From positions 1 through 37,301 of the forward strand of contig CANKHC010000007.1 in assembly GCA_947481595.1 (NCBI GenBank): 37,301 bases of DNA. The letters run 5' to 3'. Numbering within the stretch: the first letter of the stretch is position 1; every line of letters starts with the position of its first letter. The translations under genes were made by a program, and so were the position numbers. The DNA comes from Fidelibacterota bacterium (lineage in GTDB: Bacteria > Pseudomonadota > Alphaproteobacteria > Rhodospirillales > Rhodospirillaceae). The notes beneath the pieces are model-generated. The model did no database searches. It saw only the letters and a program-made list of their open reading frames with translations, and had not been told where the DNA came from. Shown here in pieces: positions 146 through 19,509 of this stretch.

Positions 146-1372
146 ATGCGTTTGATTTACGCGGACCCAGGATTGTTAGGCATCGGCGGCCATCACATGA
201 CGGCGTGCGAGAACATCATCAACAAGGCACGGGCGCGCGGTTTCGAGCCTCGGGTTTTCGCCAGCGCGCGCATGGCGCCCTACCTGCGCGAAAAACTCGG
301 AGCCACGCCGCTCTTTCGCGCCGATCCCACCAAGGTCACCGACGACGATCCCTTTTGCGGCTTTATGAATTCTTGTTTTGCGGACTCCGCCTCCCTCATC
401 GAGGACCTTGAGAACATCCCCGACGTCACCGCCGAGGATCTGATCTATATGCCGTCCGCTCAGGGCGCCCAATTGCTTGGCCTGGGACAATGGCTGGGAC
501 GGCGTGCGTCCCGCGGTGTACCAACAGCCGTTATTGACCTCAATTTTCAGCCGGGTCTCGAGCCCGTCGAGGAGAACGGCAAGCGCTTCTGGGAAATGCG
601 CAATCCGCTCGTCGACCCGCGCGCCGCCATCTATCGGTATGCCGCACGCAGCCTCGCGGCCATCCCCCTCCCAACGCTGCACATCTTCACAGGGTGTCCC
701 GACTGGGTGGATGTCTACGGCGAGCTGTTGATGCGCAAGGTACACCTTCATCCAACGCTGCCGTTCGAAGGGCCGAAGACACTGTTCAAGCGCGGCGCGC
801 GCAAGCGGTTGACCATCGTCACCCTCGGCCACCAGTGGGAACAAAAGGGCTTTCATCTTGTGCCCGGGATTTTCGCGAGCCTGCTGGAACGGCCGGAAAG
901 CCTTCGCCTCGTGGCGCACAACAGCAACGCCAAAGCCGACGCGACAGCGGAAGCGCGCGCGTTGACCGCGATGGCGGCGGCGCACGAACACGTGATTTAC
1001 GACAACCGCATCCTGAGCGGCGAAACCTACCAGGAGTTGCTCGACGCCGCCGACATCCTACTCTGCCCCTACAATCCCGATCATTATCGCACCACCCTTT
1101 CGGCCGTCGTTACCGAAGCCGTTGCCAACGGCATACCCGTGGTCGTGCCCGGTGGCACGGCCTTGGCCGCCGACGCAGCGGCTTACGGTGTCGGGGTCAC
1201 GTTCGATTCTTTCGACGCACCGGCAGTGGCGGCGGCCGTCGCGCACGTGCTTGATGATTACGATGCCCACGCCACAAAAGCCCTTGCCGCTGCCGAAAGG
1301 TGGAACAGGGAAAAAGGCGTGGGCCGGTTTTTCGACGAGATTCTGCGCATTGCGCGCGGCGGAGCTTCATGA
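146..1372 (+). CDS. GT-B glycosyltransferase (GT4-like), paralogue A
   Basis: 408-aa ORF MRLIYADPGLLGIGGHH...; C-terminal region LLCPYNPDHYRTTLSAVVTEAVANGIPVVVPGGTAL resembles GT-B nucleotide-sugar binding domains; paralogue at 6225-7445. Confidence 0.8.
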   Translation: MRLIYADPGLLGIGGHHMTACENIINKARARGFEPRVFASARMAPYLREKLGATPLFRADPTKVTDDDPFCGFMNSCFADSASLIEDLENIPDVTAEDLIYMPSAQGAQLLGLGQWLGRRASRGVPTAVIDLNFQPGLEPVEENGKRFWEMRNPLVDPRAAIYRYAARSLAAIPLPTLHIFTGCPDWVDVYGELLMRKVHLHPTLPFEGPKTLFKRGARKRLTIVTLGHQWEQKGFHLVPGIFASLLERPESLRLVAHNSNAKADATAEARALTAMAAAHEHVIYDNRILSGETYQELLDAADILLCPYNPDHYRTTLSAVVTEAVANGIPVVVPGGTALAADAAAYGVGVTFDSFDAPAVAAAVAHVLDDYDAHATKALAAAERWNREKGVGRFFDEILRIARGGAS

Positions 1373-3363
1373 GCGAAAGCACGCCGGCGGCGCGCCTTTT
1401 TGATCTCGGCTTGGCCGCGCATAAAAATGGTGATGGCGCGGAAGCGTTGCGTCTCTACAGCGAAGTGTTGGTGCAGGATCCGTGGCATTTCAACGCTCTT
1501 CACCTGTCGGGCCTCCTGGAAACCGAGGCCGGCAATTTGGCACGCGCCGTTCACCTGTACCAAGTAGCCCTCACCGCCAAACCCGACAGCGGCGTCGCTT
1601 GGTACAACCTCGGTGTCGCCCGTCAGGCCCAGGGCAACGACCGCGAGGCGCTGTTAAATTACGACCGGGCGATCACGTTCAAGCCGGATCTTGTCCAGGC
1701 CTTCATCAACCGCGGCAACATTCTGCGGAGCCTGCGGCGGGAAGCCGAGGCGCTGGCCAACTACGAAGCCGCACTCGCGGCCGACCCGGACTTCGTACCG
1801 GCTCTGGTCAATCGCGGCGTCGCACTGCGCGCGCTCAAACGACCTGAAGCCGCGCTGGCGAGCTTTACCGCCGCACTTGAGCGTAGTCCGCGCACACCCG
1901 AGGCTCTCTTCAACCAAGCCATGACGCTGATCGACCTGAAGAACTACCCAACCGCAATCGACGTGCTCGACCGGCTCGCGGCCGTCAGTCCACGTTACCC
2001 CGAGCTTGCGACGTCAAAGCTCTTCACCCAACTGCGCCTGTGCGACTGGCGCGACTACGACACCAGCAAAGCCGCCGTCCTCAGCGCCGCACAAAATTCC
2101 GAAACCGTCATCGCCCCGTTCCCGATCCTTACCTTGACGGAGGCTCCAGATATCCAGCGCCTCGTGGCCGAAGCCTGGACAAGAGAGAAACACCCACCGA
2201 ATGCGGTCCTCGGGGCGTTTTCGCCCAGGCCCGCCGGTTCGAAGATACGCCTTGGCTATTTCTCGCTTCATTACCGCGATCACGCCACCGCGCACCTTAT
2301 TGCCGGCCTCATCGAGACCCATGATCGCGACCGCTTTGAAGTCATCGCGTTCTCCTATGGTCCAGAGACCGGCGACGCCATGCATAAGCGTCTTGTCGCG
2401 GCGTTTGATACGTTCGTCGACATTTCCATCCTCTCCGACGTCGACGCAGCAGCGCGCAGCCGTGCGATGGGAATCGACATCGCCATTGAGCTCGCCGGAC
2501 ACATCGACGAGGCGCGCACCGGCATCTTCGCCGCGCGTGCTGCGCCGCTGCAAGTGAACTACCTCTGCTATCCCGGCACGATGGGGGCGCCGTATTTCGA
2601 CTACATCATTGCCGATCCGGTCGTTGTACCGCCGGGGGCGGAGCGCTTCTACAGCGAGAACGTCGTCCGCCTGCCCCACAGCTACCAGCCCAACGACCGC
2701 CACCGCACCATCGGACCGCGAGTCTTCACACGCGAAGATCTGGGCCTGCCGCCGTCGGGCTTTGTATTCTGCTGCTTCAACAACTGCTTCAAGATCACTC
2801 CGGCCACCTTCAGGAGCTGGATGAATATCCTCGCCCAGGTCGACGGCAGCGTCTTGTGGCTGCTTGAGGACCACCCCGCTGCGGTTGCCAATCTACGCAT
2901 TGAAGCTGCTGCGCGCGGCATCGCACCGGCGCGCCTCGTCTTTGCGCGGCGCGCATCCCATGCCGATCACCTGTCGCGGCACAGGGCCGCCGACCTTCTC
3001 CTCGACACCCTTCCTTACAACGCACACACCACCGCGAGTGATGCGCTGTGGTGTGGGATGCCGGTTTTAACGCAGGCGGGCGCCTCTTTTGCCGGGCGCG
3101 TCGCGGCTTCTCTGCTCGCAGCCGTGGGACTATCCGAACTGATCACCACGACAGACGAAGAGTACGTAGCCCTGGCGGTAAAGCTCGCGCGCGACCCGCT
3201 GGCACTCGCCGCGCTCCGCCAGCGGTTACAAGAAGCGCGCCTGACCGCCCCCCTGTTCGATACCGAACGCTACACGCGCGATCTGGAGGCTGCCTTCACG
3301 CACATGTTGAAACGCCACCACGACGGCCTCGATCCCACCCCGCTTGATATTCCCGCCGGCTGA
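1369..3363 (+). CDS. TPR-repeat O-GlcNAc transferase / SPINDLY-like (GT41) protein
   Basis: N-terminal TPR repeats (AWYNLGVARQAQGNDREALLNYDRAI, LVQAFINRGNILRSLRREAEALANYEAAL) plus GT41-like C-terminus (LGYFSLHYRDHATAHLIAG, QVNYLCYPGTMGAPYFDYIIADPVVVPP, LLLDTLPYNAHTTASDALWCGMPVLT). ATG overlaps the upstream stop (ATGA). Confidence 0.92.
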   Translation: MSESTPAARLFDLGLAAHKNGDGAEALRLYSEVLVQDPWHFNALHLSGLLETEAGNLARAVHLYQVALTAKPDSGVAWYNLGVARQAQGNDREALLNYDRAITFKPDLVQAFINRGNILRSLRREAEALANYEAALAADPDFVPALVNRGVALRALKRPEAALASFTAALERSPRTPEALFNQAMTLIDLKNYPTAIDVLDRLAAVSPRYPELATSKLFTQLRLCDWRDYDTSKAAVLSAAQNSETVIAPFPILTLTEAPDIQRLVAEAWTREKHPPNAVLGAFSPRPAGSKIRLGYFSLHYRDHATAHLIAGLIETHDRDRFEVIAFSYGPETGDAMHKRLVAAFDTFVDISILSDVDAAARSRAMGIDIAIELAGHIDEARTGIFAARAAPLQVNYLCYPGTMGAPYFDYIIADPVVVPPGAERFYSENVVRLPHSYQPNDRHRTIGPRVFTREDLGLPPSGFVFCCFNNCFKITPATFRSWMNILAQVDGSVLWLLEDHPAAVANLRIEAAARGIAPARLVFARRASHADHLSRHRAADLLLDTLPYNAHTTASDALWCGMPVLTQAGASFAGRVAASLLAAVGLSELITTTDEEYVALAVKLARDPLALAALRQRLQEARLTAPLFDTERYTRDLEAAFTHMLKRHHDGLDPTPLDIPAG

Positions 3364-3425
3364 GGCAGCGTCCATGGGGTCAGGCCCGCTTGCGATCGTC
3401 GCATCCGCGTGAGATATCGGTAGGC

Positions 3426-4406
3426 ATGTACATCGACGGCAAAACCATTTTCGTCGCCGGGGGCACCGGCATGGCCGGCTCGGCCATTGTCCAACAGCTC
3501 CTCGCGGCGTCACCGTCCGTGAAGATACGCGCCTCCTTTCGCAGCAAGATCGGGCATTTCATCGACGACCCGCGTGTCAGCTATGAGCAAGCCGACTTCC
3601 GCAACGCCGACGATTGCGCCCGCATCGCGCGCGGCTGCGACGCCGCGGTCCTCAGCGCCGCCGTCACCGGCGGCGCCCGTCAGGCCACGGAAGAGCCCTG
3701 GCGCATCCTCACCGACAACGTGGTCCTCGATGTCCGCCTGATCGAGGCCGTCTGCCTTGCCCGCACCAAGCGCGTGATCTACGTGAGCTCGGCGACAGTC
3801 TATCAGGAGTTCGAGGGACTGATCGCCGAGGACCAGCTCAATTGGAACATCGACCCGGTGCGCTCCTATATGGGCACAGGCTGGGTCAACCGTTACGCCG
3901 AGAAGCTGTGCCAATTCTGGCACCAGCAGCGCGGCGTATCCTTCACGATCGCGCGCGCCTCCAACATCTTCGGCCCTTACGGCAAGTTCGATCCCCGCAG
4001 CGCCAATTTCATTCCCGCACTGATCCGCAAGGCCGTCGACCGCATGGACCCTTTCGAAGTCTGGGGCAACCCCGGCGTCACCCGCGACGTGATCTATAGC
4101 GAGGACTTTGGCGGCGCCGTCGTGGCTCTGCTGAACGCCCCGGATGCCGGCTACGACATCTTCAACGTCGGTACGGGCCGGCGCACGCAAGTGGGCGAAG
4201 TCGTCGACTGGGCGCTACGCTGCGCCGAACACGCCCCACGCGAGGTCGTCTGGCGCGGCGATGCGCCCATCTCGACGGCGTTCCGCGCGCTCGATTGCAG
4301 CAAGCTGACCCGCGTGACCGGTTGGCGCCCGACCGTGGCAATTGAGGATGGGATCGCACGCACCACCCGCTGGTGGCAGGAAAATCACGCCACTTGGCCG
4401 AGATAA
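3426..4406 (+). CDS. NAD-dependent epimerase/dehydratase (extended SDR; fucose synthase/UDP-sugar epimerase-like)
   Basis: N-terminal Rossmann motif IFVAGGTGMAGSAIVQQLL; VSSATVYQ and ARASNIFGPYGKFDPRSANFIPALI; internal ATG at 3426. Confidence 0.88.
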   Translation: MYIDGKTIFVAGGTGMAGSAIVQQLLAASPSVKIRASFRSKIGHFIDDPRVSYEQADFRNADDCARIARGCDAAVLSAAVTGGARQATEEPWRILTDNVVLDVRLIEAVCLARTKRVIYVSSATVYQEFEGLIAEDQLNWNIDPVRSYMGTGWVNRYAEKLCQFWHQQRGVSFTIARASNIFGPYGKFDPRSANFIPALIRKAVDRMDPFEVWGNPGVTRDVIYSEDFGGAVVALLNAPDAGYDIFNVGTGRRTQVGEVVDWALRCAEHAPREVVWRGDAPISTAFRALDCSKLTRVTGWRPTVAIEDGIARTTRWWQENHATWPR

Positions 4407-4455
4407 TCTAGGCCGAGATAATCTAGGCCGAGATAATCTAGGCCGAGATAATCTA
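4396..4455. repeat. Perfect tandem repeat, 4 x 15 bp (GGCCGAGATAATCTA)
   Basis: Read directly: four consecutive identical units, the first overlapping the epimerase stop codon. Confidence 0.98.
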
Positions 4456-4462
4456 GGCCGCG

Positions 4463-5392
4463 CTAAACCGGCTGCCAGACGATCACCGAATACCCTTCGT
4501 GGAAAAGGCTGCCGAAGCCGAGGCGCCGCTCGTCGAAGATGCGAATGCGTCCCGTGCTTTCGAGCCCTTTCAGATGGGTTTGGAAACCGGTGAGATAGTT
4601 GCGGGCGCTGTGGAACGCGACGGCGAGATGATCGACCAAGCTCTGCTCCGGGCGGTAGAATTCGAGGATGGGTTCCAGATGCACGCAGACGGCAGGGCGT
4701 TTGCGCAGGAGGAAATCGACGAAAGGCTCGAACTTCGGGCCGATCTGTTCGAGCGCACAGAAGGTGAAGACCGCGGCGTCGCGCGGCATTTCCAATGAAT
4801 CGTCCGGCGCGAAGAAATCGAAGGCGCGGCCGCGCATTTTGAAACCACGTTGGCGCGCCATGTCGTCGACCAGCGCGACGGCCGCCGGCGCCCAGTCGAG
4901 CCCGGTGATCGGGAGCGCCGGATACATCAGCGCGAGATCTTCGAGGTTGAAGGCGCTGCCGCTGCCGAATTCAAAGGCCGCGCTGGCTTTTCCCGCCCAC
5001 TGGTGGAACAGGATGCGCCGCACGACGGCATAGACGTCGAGTTCCAAGCGCGGCGAGGCCGCCAACGCGAAGTCGCCCGCGATACGCACCACCGCGTCCC
5101 CCGACACGAAACCGGGTTCTAGCGCCTGCGTGGAAAAAGCGCCCGAGGCCGCTTTGGCGTGCTGGTCGCTCCAGACATCGGCCCACAGGGCGCGCCGCTT
5201 CTCATCCAGCACCGACTGCGGTCCTTGCGCCAGGCGCTTGAGGATGCGCACGACGACGGCGTCACGTTCAGCCGGAGAGAGCCGGCGGTAGCGCAGGTCG
5301 GCCGCGGCGACCTTCTCCACCGCGAAGGCCGGCAGCGCGGCTGTCGAGAGGTCGAACCAGCGCGCGAAGGTCTCGGAGTCCAGGGTGTTCAT
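4463..5392 (-). CDS. Class I SAM-dependent methyltransferase-like protein
   Basis: ORF from MNTLDSETFARWFDL; FEFGSGSAFNLEDLALMYPALPITGLDWAPAAVALVDDMARQRG resembles a SAM-binding region; ATGA overlap with upstream PhyH gene. Confidence 0.65.
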   Translation of the reverse strand: MNTLDSETFARWFDLSTAALPAFAVEKVAAADLRYRRLSPAERDAVVVRILKRLAQGPQSVLDEKRRALWADVWSDQHAKAASGAFSTQALEPGFVSGDAVVRIAGDFALAASPRLELDVYAVVRRILFHQWAGKASAAFEFGSGSAFNLEDLALMYPALPITGLDWAPAAVALVDDMARQRGFKMRGRAFDFFAPDDSLEMPRDAAVFTFCALEQIGPKFEPFVDFLLRKRPAVCVHLEPILEFYRPEQSLVDHLAVAFHSARNYLTGFQTHLKGLESTGRIRIFDERRLGFGSLFHEGYSVIVWQPV

Positions 5393-6120
5393 GCGCGTGG
5401 CCGGAGGGGGATTTCGCTGCGCTTGGCGTGCCGCCCCGGATTGAAGGACGATCCCGCCCGGATATAGGTGCACAACAGGACATAGCGGAACTTGTCCGAC
5501 ATGTTCGGATTTGACCCGTGCACAAGGTCGCCGTCGAGAAGCACGGCAGCCCCTGCCGGCGCCGATAAGTCTTCGGCTTGCGCCTCATAACCTGCGGGAA
5601 AGACCGCTTCGCGCGAATAGCCGTCGACGTCTTGATCGGCAGTGGCCGGCAGGTGGGTCTCGCGGATCGGCAGAAGGCCCAGTTCCTGGCTGCCGGGAAA
5701 CATAAACAACGACCCCATGCGCGGGGTCACGTCGACCAGGGGAATCCACGCGGAGACGAACTTGCCACGTTCGCCGCGCACGAAAAAATTGTCCTGATGC
5801 GCCGTGAAGCCGCGGGTCCCCGGCTTACAAAAGAACATTTCGCTTTGCAGGGCGGCGGGTTCTCCGCCCACAAGCTGGGCGACGATGTTGGCCAGACGGG
5901 GATGTGCGAGCGTGGCCAAGAACACGTCATGCTGGCGGTGCGGCTGCATCACCGGCTTGAACGAGCCGGTCTTGGGGCCCTCCAACTCCTGGGCCGCGGC
6001 AATCACCGCCGCGCATTCAGCCGCCGACAGAACACCTGGCACGATGGCGTAACCGCGCGCTGCGAATTCCGCCACCTGCGCGTCGGACAGCGGATTTTGA
6101 CCTTTTGAATTGCCGGACAT
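5389..6120 (-). CDS. Phytanoyl-CoA dioxygenase (PhyH) family Fe(II)/2-oxoglutarate oxygenase, canonical HxD
   Basis: FTAHQDNFFVRG (HxD), VLLDGDLVHGSNPN (distal His), MGSLFMFPGSQ; start MSGNSKGQ at 6120. Confidence 0.85.
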   Translation of the reverse strand: MSGNSKGQNPLSDAQVAEFAARGYAIVPGVLSAAECAAVIAAAQELEGPKTGSFKPVMQPHRQHDVFLATLAHPRLANIVAQLVGGEPAALQSEMFFCKPGTRGFTAHQDNFFVRGERGKFVSAWIPLVDVTPRMGSLFMFPGSQELGLLPIRETHLPATADQDVDGYSREAVFPAGYEAQAEDLSAPAGAAVLLDGDLVHGSNPNMSDKFRYVLLCTYIRAGSSFNPGRHAKRSEIPLRPRA

Positions 6121-6224
6121 CACTTTAATACACGATTGGGTATCACCACGGGGCGCGCCATCATACCGGCGGACGTGGGTTGCTTGCCAGAGCCGCAACA
6201 CGACGGGATGGTATCTCACCTGCC

Positions 6225-7445
6225 ATGCGCTTGATCTATGCCGACTCAGGGCTTCTTTCCAACACCGGGCACCACGCACCCGTGTGCCGCACCATCTTGC
6301 GCGAGCTGCACGCCCGCGGAGTTCAAACCGTACTGCTCGCGGGCGCCACTATCGACTCCGACCTGCGCGAGGAACTGGCGGCCTTCCCGCTGTTTCGTAT
6401 TTCATCCTACCACTTCACCACCGGTGACCCGCTGTGCGGCTGGTTCGACGGCTTCCTGCGCGGAACCCAGCAGACGGCGGAGGACTATAGCCGGCTCTCA
6501 GACACGACGCGCGACGACATCCTCTATGTCACCGGCGTCCAGCCGGCGCATCTTGCGGGGTTGATCGAATGGCTTGGCAAGCTGCCGCCGGAACGCATGC
6601 CGGCGGTGGTCGTGGACCTGATCTTCCCGCCGGGGATGGACCCCAAGCCCGGCAGCAACAATGAAGTCTGGGAAAGCCGTGACCCGCGCGAGGATGGTCG
6701 CGCCGTCTTCTATCGCCATATCGGCCTGCGCCTGAAGGAGATGAACCTCACGCGGCTGCGCTTTGTCACCGAGTATCCGGATTTGCCGAAGATCTATGGC
6801 ATCCTGCTGCTCCGCGACATTGCCTACACCCCTGCCCTGCCCCTTGCCCTGCCTGCAAATCTGCGCCGGCGCGCCGGCGTGCGTCCCATGACGGTGGGCA
6901 TCGTCGGTCACCAGCGCCCCGATAAGGGCTATGCCTTCATGCCCGAGGTCTTTGGCGCGCCCTTGAAGGCGCGCGACGACATCCGCATCCTGGTGCACAA
7001 CAGCGGGCCGATGAAATTCAGGCTGCCTGAGACCGACCGCGCGCTGGCCGATCTTGCCGCGCGCGACCCGCGTCTCGCTCTGCGCGACGAAGCCCTCTCC
7101 CCGGATCAATATGAAGCTGTTCTGGCCTCGATCGACCTGATGCTGTGTCCCTACGATCCTAAAATCTATCGGACGGCCCTTTCCGGCGTGGTCATGGAGT
7201 GCCTGATCCGTGCGATCCCGGTCGTCGTCCCAGGAGGCACGGTGAACGCCGATCAATTCCGGATCTTTGGGCCGAGCGGTGTTGCTTTTGAGCGCTTCGA
7301 TGCCGCCTCCATCACCGCCGCCGCACTGAAGGCCCTCGACCACTTCGATGACCATGCGGCTGCCGCGGTGACGACGGCGCACACCTGGGCGCGCGACAGG
7401 GATCCGGGGAAATTCGTCGACGAAATCCTGCGCCTGGGCGCTTAG
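6225..7445 (+). CDS. GT-B glycosyltransferase (GT4-like), paralogue B
   Basis: MRLIYADSGLLSNTGHHAPVCRTILRELHARG... clearly paralogous to 146-1372; LCPYDPKIYRTALSGVVMECLIRAIPVVVPGGT. Confidence 0.8.
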   Translation: MRLIYADSGLLSNTGHHAPVCRTILRELHARGVQTVLLAGATIDSDLREELAAFPLFRISSYHFTTGDPLCGWFDGFLRGTQQTAEDYSRLSDTTRDDILYVTGVQPAHLAGLIEWLGKLPPERMPAVVVDLIFPPGMDPKPGSNNEVWESRDPREDGRAVFYRHIGLRLKEMNLTRLRFVTEYPDLPKIYGILLLRDIAYTPALPLALPANLRRRAGVRPMTVGIVGHQRPDKGYAFMPEVFGAPLKARDDIRILVHNSGPMKFRLPETDRALADLAARDPRLALRDEALSPDQYEAVLASIDLMLCPYDPKIYRTALSGVVMECLIRAIPVVVPGGTVNADQFRIFGPSGVAFERFDAASITAAALKALDHFDDHAAAAVTTAHTWARDRDPGKFVDEILRLGA

Positions 7446-8500
7446 CCGCCGGGGGTTTTGATCGTGTCGTCGGGCACGTCGTGAACGTCGTTGAGGTGAC
7501 GGCGGCTGTCGACGAACCGCGCGGTTGCCAGGTTGGCCTGATCGGGGCGGCGCTCGACCTTTTCCATCAAGGCCCGCACCGCATCGCCCGCGCTTTGGAC
7601 GTCGCGTTCCGCCAGCGCCACGACCAATGCGGCGCGCTTCTCAGCCTCCGCGCCGCCGATCGCCTCGGAGATCTCGAGAGCGAAGTCATAGTATTCGAGT
7701 GTGGCGGCAATCAGGAACAGGGCTAGCCCGCGGCGGCCGGTCAGCACGGACCTATCCCCGCCCCGGTCGAAGGGGTCCTTGAAAAAAACCATGTCGGCCC
7801 AAAACAGGCGCTCGCGCCCCGCGGCGCGGGCCTTGTCGAGCCGCTTCTGGGACCGGTAATTCATCGTCTGAAAGCCGTAGAAGGCGAAGCCGCGCGCGCG
7901 CAGGAATTGCTCAACTTCACTGAAGCGCGGCTGGTTTTCGTAAAATTCGCAGAACTCGGCTTCGGCGACCACACACAGTGTGCTGTCGCGCAGCGTCTTC
8001 TCTGCGCCCGCGAGGATCTCGAGTTCGCTGCCTTGGGTGTCGAGTTTGATGAACTCTCCGGCTTGAACGCCACCGGCTTTGGCGATCACCTCATCCAGCG
8101 GCTGAACCGCGATGCGTTCGACGCGCGTGACATTGTTGCCGCGGGGACGATAGCGGGCGGTAAAATCCGGATTGGGGTTAAGCAGTGAAATGTTGGTGGC
8201 AAGCTGCGTGATGTAGAGGTCGCGCTCCTCCGCAACCCGGCCGAGCGCGACCGGCAGGGTTTGACATCGCGCCCACGGCGCCTTGAAGGCGGCATCGGCG
8301 TTCATACGCTCGCTTTCGGCGCCGTCTGGCTCGAACCCGAGGAACGATGCGAGCCGGCCGATGGGCGCAGCCAGAGGCGGGGCACCTGCCCGTGCCCCAA
8401 CGTCGATGAAACCGAGGGGCTGGGCCTTAAATGCCGCTTCCAGCGCGCTGCCTTTGAGCAGCGGGTGGTCGGCGATGGTGTTGAAACGGGGAGTGGACAT
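7442..8500 (-). CDS. FkbM family methyltransferase
   Basis: VQPLDEVIAKAGGVQAGEFIKLDTQGSELEILAGAEKTLRDSTLCVVAEAEFCEFYENQPRFSEVEQFLRARGF is a typical FkbM signature. Confidence 0.88.
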   Translation of the reverse strand: MSTPRFNTIADHPLLKGSALEAAFKAQPLGFIDVGARAGAPPLAAPIGRLASFLGFEPDGAESERMNADAAFKAPWARCQTLPVALGRVAEERDLYITQLATNISLLNPNPDFTARYRPRGNNVTRVERIAVQPLDEVIAKAGGVQAGEFIKLDTQGSELEILAGAEKTLRDSTLCVVAEAEFCEFYENQPRFSEVEQFLRARGFAFYGFQTMNYRSQKRLDKARAAGRERLFWADMVFFKDPFDRGGDRSVLTGRRGLALFLIAATLEYYDFALEISEAIGGAEAEKRAALVVALAERDVQSAGDAVRALMEKVERRPDQANLATARFVDSRRHLNDVHDVPDDTIKTPGG

Positions 8501-18539: not shown

Positions 18540-19400
18540 TTATTTGAAGATTTCTGCGCGGGGGAAATACGCCTTCTGCTCGTCGGTATACCTTTCCCAA
18601 GCGTCGGCGTGAACGCGCATGTAGCCGTTGTAGTGTACGGGGCTTTGTGACGGCACCCACTGTTCGCTGAACATGAGATGCAGCGATTTCCGGGTCTTTC
18701 CGGGTTTTGTGCGTAAGCCGCCGTGCCGCAGATTTTCAGTGAAGAAGAGCACGTCGCCCTTATTCAACAAGGCCATTTGAAGGCCCGGCTGGGCGTAAGG
18801 ATTGTCGCCATGCGGCGAGTGTAGGCTTGATTTGTGGCTTCCGGGCACAAAGCAAAACGGTCCGTCGTCCATCGTCGTGTCGTGGAGGGCAATGACGATG
18901 CGGCACTGGAGAAGATGTATGTGTCTCGGCCGGACGGTACGGCCGTCCGCTGACTGCATGTACGTTCCAATCCACGAATACCTGCTTCTGGCGTCGACCG
19001 GTCCGCCCATATGCATGGGCGTGTAGCTGTCGCCATCGCGGTAAAATATCATCCCGCTGGCCATGCTATGGGGCGGCTCGACCATTTCGTTGACATAGGA
19101 CAGAAGTTTTGGATTGCCGATCAGCATGTCGAAGGATTTCGATGCGCCGATGAAATCCTCCACGATCAGCGTCAGGCCGGGGTTACGCCTCACCATCACC
19201 GACGCGCCGGTCTTCGCATCAATGCTATAGGGCTGGCCGAAATGATCCGCCAATTTCGGGGCATTTTCGGCCACGGAGCGGAAATGACCTTCTAGATCGT
19301 CGACGGCACGGATAAGCGGCTCAAGCTCGGCGTCACTGAAGAGACGAGGTGCGACCAAGCATCCGACGAGATCGAATTGATAGATTTCTTCTTTTTTCAT
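18540..19400 (-). CDS. Phytanoyl-CoA dioxygenase (PhyH)-like protein with HxG motif
   Basis: GMIFYRDGDSYTPMHMGGPVDARSRYSWIG, DGPFCFVPGSHKSS, GDVLFFTENLRHGGLRTKPGKTRKSLHLMFSE; start MKKEEIYQFD at 19400. Confidence 0.8.
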   Translation of the reverse strand: MKKEEIYQFDLVGCLVAPRLFSDAELEPLIRAVDDLEGHFRSVAENAPKLADHFGQPYSIDAKTGASVMVRRNPGLTLIVEDFIGASKSFDMLIGNPKLLSYVNEMVEPPHSMASGMIFYRDGDSYTPMHMGGPVDARSRYSWIGTYMQSADGRTVRPRHIHLLQCRIVIALHDTTMDDGPFCFVPGSHKSSLHSPHGDNPYAQPGLQMALLNKGDVLFFTENLRHGGLRTKPGKTRKSLHLMFSEQWVPSQSPVHYNGYMRVHADAWERYTDEQKAYFPRAEIFK

Positions 19401-19509
19401 ATTGGGTGCGGCGCTCAGCTCAAGAAGATTGGAATGGCGCCCACTCGGATCGCTGCGCGATCCATGCGGGCCGTTCACGGCCCGCAGATTTTGAGTCAGG
19501 GGGCGCTCA

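Follow-up and report, generated by a model that had tools for sequence, protein, structure and literature searches.

Does a glycine in place of the proximal iron-binding carboxylate make a PhyH-like protein a halogenase? The question is raised by a minus-strand gene at 18540-19400 of the window, that is, the whole stretch of 37,301 nucleotides that was analysed. HxG or HxA serves as a signature in genome mining for Fe/2OG halogenases, and the general mark of these enzymes, Ala or Gly for the proximal carboxylate, is present in the encoded protein as H-M-G. A wide group of bacterial oxygenases, few of them characterised, normally has HxG as well.

Results

The raw reading frame in the ORF list spans 18540-19478 (312 aa, minus strand). 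The N-termini of the homologues coincide in the alignment with an internal ATG at 19400, and the gene was therefore bounded at 18540-19400 (286 aa), identical to the coordinates given in a preliminary description; the frame is intact. All residue numbers refer to the 286-aa protein. It matches Pfam PhyH (PF05721) with an E-value of 6.6e-11 and 43.3 bits, above the curated cut-off of 22, and aligns with its homologues over the full length. The H-x-D/E...H iron triad of PF05721 is incomplete: the distal histidine is present, and H-M-G is read at the proximal position. The protein reads YTPMHMGGPVDA in the proximal motif and FTENLRHGG in the distal motif, and the arginine expected to bind 2-oxoglutarate (2OG) lies within KTRKS. 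In alignments A3 and A4 and in an alignment of 147 rows, the proximal motif His130-Met131-Gly132 (19005-19013, minus strand, as for all residues below) keeps the iron histidine and has Gly for the carboxylate. His130 (19013-19011) falls in the proximal iron ligand column of PhyH proteins, His226 (18723-18725) in the distal one and Arg237 (18690-18692), the expected anchor of the 2OG carboxylate, in the 2OG column, while Gly132 (19007-19005) occupies the carboxylate column. The alignments thus bear out the earlier claim that H-M-G replaces H-x-D/E with the distal histidine and the 2OG arginine intact. It had also been described correctly that the second PhyH protein of the window (5389-6120, minus strand; Pfam PhyH E 3.1e-24), used here for comparison, keeps a canonical HQD; its proximal motif is FTAHQDN and its distal motif LVHGS, with the arginine kept.

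Scans with the single protein or with a two-row alignment gave no relatives, and searches with the protein alone gave few, the nearest of which (L009) already read HMGG. With the four-row alignment A2 as query, 406 relatives were obtained from a collection of one genome per species (84,980 species), and 80 of the 406 were fetched. Since these 80 rows were selected for their likeness to HxG queries, they indicate the breadth of the clade and not the frequency of HxG among PhyH proteins. The six nearest homologues (L059-L064; their labels are Reyranella, Enhydrobacter, Asaia and Rhodospirillales) show 36-40% identity to the window protein over the full length and carry HMGGPID or a similar motif. 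Because the nearest homologues share HMGG and no clade row in the 147-row alignment has Asp or Glu at the column two residues past the proximal histidine (proximal His+2), HMG is more than a product of chance or sequencing error, and a frameshift origin is likewise ruled out. The C-termini of the six homologues bear an extension of about 40-70 residues, charged, Leu-rich and coiled-coil-like, which is absent from the window protein.

The clade was sampled in 12 phyla, namely Acidobacteriota, Armatimonadota, Chloroflexota, Gemmatimonadota, Planctomycetota, Poribacteria, Latescibacterota, Actinomycetota, Verrucomicrobiota, Kiritimatiellota, Bacillota and Pseudomonadota. Its proximal motifs are HMGG, HSGG, HHGY and HGGG, with a few cases of HxH, HxA and HxS and one of HxP. 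The distal histidine and the arginine are invariant in all rows that have the proximal histidine (84 of 84). A maximum-likelihood tree built from 90 rows unites the carboxylate-less proteins in one branch with support of 100/99, found in all 200 bootstrap trees, and the HxD PhyH proteins fall on its other side; a quick tree of 105 rows gave the same split. The window protein is placed on the carboxylate-less side together with HygX, and it carries both marks of the clade, having neither Asp nor Glu at proximal His+2 and an acid (Asp or Glu in the clade) four residues before the distal histidine (distal His-4). Judged from its sequence, it adds a divergent member to a broad bacterial clade related to HygX and devoid of the proximal carboxylate.

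Among solved proteins, HygX matches the single window protein best (E 3.7e-9) and is also the top match of the family profiles (E 1.7e-20 and 7.3e-29), and HygX entries make up the 16 best Foldseek hits of the predicted structure (mean pLDDT 93.4). The PDB titles describe HygX in complex with iron, and also with nickel, 2OG and hygromycin B. The enzyme acts as an oxygenase in the biosynthesis of hygromycin B, which contains no halogen. In the tree HygX sits inside the carboxylate-less clade; its branch is long, and its exact position within the clade is therefore unsure. The abstract of the HygX paper by McCulloch et al. (2015) reportedly speaks of variation in metal coordination in HygX, and the ligands may already be described there; a literature search of limited scope gave no publication detailing the metal ligands of HygX or Ser231 of SyrB2.

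Several clade members are unusual in themselves. Tandem PhyH pairs occur as adjacent ORFs, for example near 6000-7800 of the loci, in Acidobacteriota, Poribacteria, Verrucomicrobiota and Gemmatimonadota (L070, L072, L073, L074, L081, L086, L089, L092, L101, L105, L106, L112, L116, L123 and L130). Copy 1 reads HHGYAELL or HHGYSELL, and copy 2 reads TQGGxADP or SQGGxADP and has lost the proximal histidine and mostly the 2OG arginine. By analogy with the TlxI-TlxJ heterodimer, the two copies could be catalytic and non-catalytic partners. The primary copies at L067, L068, L075 and L094 constitute a subclade with LHMHGTP, that is, with His at the carboxylate position, and a three-His iron site is conceivable for them. 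A near homologue at L065 (6010-6816) reads THQ--PTG, the GG of HMGG being removed by a two-residue gap, with the distal motif intact; its locus holds two more PhyH genes, both HxD.

The residue at distal His-4 separates the clade from its relatives. In the 147-row alignment it is Asp or Glu in all 101 carboxylate-less rows, among them HygX and 17 rows in which no proximal histidine can be recognised, versus none of the 46 HxD relatives; in both SyrB2-type controls it is Ser. Since the rows share ancestry, this is to be read as one event long preserved and not as 101 independent ones. A set gathered separately by whole-genome search gave the same pattern in a profile alignment, except for rows that are seemingly mis-registered. 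A few rows of that profile alignment seem to lack both acids; of these, L027 proves to be HRD in the full alignment, L008 is HID, and the others (EWH, RSS, TMH and SMH) resemble register slips.

The acid of the window protein is Glu222 (18735-18737). In the predicted secondary structure it lies in the turn between a strand ending at model residue 221 and the strand that opens with the distal histidine (Glu223 and His227 in the numbering of the predicted model). The known topology of the fold puts this turn on the side of the barrel where the metal sits. The clade-wide acid beside the distal histidine is a new point of the present analysis. It may compensate for the missing carboxylate; Glu222 could be an iron ligand in a new position, hold a water in the second sphere or play a structural part. 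In the strongest form of this idea, the whole clade, HygX included, would have a permuted facial triad with the carboxylate moved from His+2 to the distal His-4 loop, and its members would be two-His-one-carboxylate oxygenases; we regard this as possible but rather doubtful. The tandem copies without the proximal histidine, and mostly without the 2OG arginine, still carry the acid, which disfavours a purely metal role for it.

Degenerate second genes of this kind (TQGG/SQGG) also lend some credit to the view that the window protein has merely retained the fold and serves without catalysis, for example as a partner subunit or a binding protein. However, it keeps the proximal histidine, the distal histidine and the arginine, so that it looks different from the degenerate copies, and, being the sole clade member found in the source genome, it has no tandem partner. 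The non-catalytic option, which had been left open earlier, is thus distinctly unlikely.

The halogenase reading put forward in the preliminary description fares no better. Gly132 would open a halide site on the iron, as in WelO5, BesD and SyrB2, and a substrate would be chlorinated or brominated; the proximal H-x-G is that of known Fe/2OG halogenases, and the remaining iron and 2OG site is intact. Against this, the chlorinating family TIGR01762 (cut-off 226.3 bits) has no match to the window protein at E <= 1, the nearest solved protein, HygX, is no halogenase, and at the site of the clade's Asp or Glu the SyrB2-type controls carry Ser. These controls were two TIGR01762 loci, L140 (HQA) and L141 (HQG), with L139 and L142 left out; WelO5, BesD and AdaV were left out of the tree, so the placement covers the SyrB2 type only. 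In the 90-row tree L140 and L141 group with the HxD proteins, and a topology uniting the SyrB2-type loci with the carboxylate-less rows fails the AU test (p 0.008). On these results together, kinship to SyrB2-type halogenases is rejected. As the controls group with the HxD rows and apart from the carboxylate-less clade, the alignments and tree indicate that the carboxylate has been lost at least twice in the PhyH fold. Among the best 60 of 69 PDB matches to the family profile, none could be recognised as WelO5 or BesD. It had been held beforehand that a close HxG oxygenase homologue without halogenation would tell against a halogenase, and HygX is largely such a homologue, though at about 20% identity only. 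Moreover, human aspartate/asparagine beta-hydroxylase (AspH) is a natural HxG 2OG hydroxylase with two protein ligands, and FIH with Asp replaced by Gly retains some activity (PMC10947486); HxG alone therefore does not make a halogenase. Halogenation by the window protein is very unlikely in our judgement, and the protein is most likely an iron-dependent oxygenase and not a halogen-adding enzyme.

Of the earlier suggestion that another carboxylate, such as the Asp of GGPVDA, might serve, the idea survives better than the residue. Asp136 (18993-18995), six residues past the proximal histidine, is kept in 8 of 9 immediate-clade proteins but in just 23 of the 101 carboxylate-less rows, many of these degenerate and without the proximal histidine, a count on which it was rejected as a clade-wide iron ligand, Glu222 being the better candidate. 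Since the other subclades and HygX lack its equivalent, it is not a general solution, and even a two-His-one-carboxylate oxygenase confined to the subclade, with Asp136 as the substitute, is highly improbable.

As to gene context, GT4, TPR-GT41, epimerase, FkbM methyltransferase, GT61 and MFS transporter genes accompany the window gene, and no orthosomycin cluster was noticed in the gene context of the window. The successive genes at 146-8500, for GT4, TPR-GT41, an epimerase, a methyltransferase-like protein, the PhyH protein with HQD and an FkbM methyltransferase, look like a glycan-decoration island. The neighbours of the near homologues include FkbM methyltransferases (L059, L061 and L064), weakly matched methyltransferases (L060, L062 and L064), a GT2-GT41 protein (L064) and, at L059, a further PhyH protein; L063 is a near homologue without such glycosyltransferase or methyltransferase neighbours. 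The neighbour genes, compared without a background set, suggest a glycan or decorated-sugar substrate for the window protein.

The source genome yielded no clade member besides the window protein. No clade-like score was obtained in 18 congeneric genomes (best 2.8e-10), and in a 299-genome sample of the phylum, for which the best first-look candidates per genome were scored, no other genome reached E 1e-20. The gene looks accessory in its lineage. Its third-position GC is 0.69 versus 0.85 for polA, which is weakly in line with acquisition.

Discussion

The product of the window gene is probably a PhyH-fold Fe(II)/2-oxoglutarate oxygenase from the HygX clade without the proximal carboxylate, perhaps one for the hydroxylation or cyclisation of a polar metabolite. 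We infer the following course of catalysis. The iron would be bound by His130 and His226, and 2OG would occupy two further iron sites, anchored by Arg237. Water would take the site of the missing carboxylate, or else an acid from another part of the protein, for which Glu222 is the best candidate. A ferryl intermediate would then abstract hydrogen, and the substrate would be hydroxylated or oxidatively cyclised; it is perhaps a sugar, a glycan or another polar metabolite handled by the products of the adjacent glycosyltransferase and methyltransferase genes.

The acid at distal His-4 provides a simple sequence rule, which split the clade from both SyrB2-type controls examined. If this acid binds iron, it represents another way of building the facial triad. 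If it is no ligand, the clade offers natural two-histidine oxygenases for asking what decides between hydroxylation and halogenation.

When compared with known systems, the canonical PhyH-type oxygenases (human PhyH, 2a1x; EctD, 3emr; and the protein at 5389-6120 of the window) share with the window protein the fold, the two histidines and the 2OG arginine, but they keep H-x-D and have no acid before the distal histidine. The SyrB2-type halogenases (TIGR01762; SyrB2, 2fct, and CytC3, 3gja, which are weak profile matches at 6e-7 and 6e-6) share with the window protein the fold and Ala or Gly for the carboxylate, and they differ in their separate tree branch and in the Ser before the distal histidine. 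AspH likewise has HxG, although it belongs to a different family of the fold. HygX (4xc9, 4xca, 4xcb and 4zpi) comes from an actinomycete antibiotic pathway, whereas no aminoglycoside cluster was seen near the window gene, and the identity between the two proteins is low. Nevertheless, HygX has the same fold, belongs to the same clade and keeps the arginine; its proximal motif LHGGN is H-x-G, and in NEALMHG it carries an acid four residues before the distal histidine, as the window protein does.
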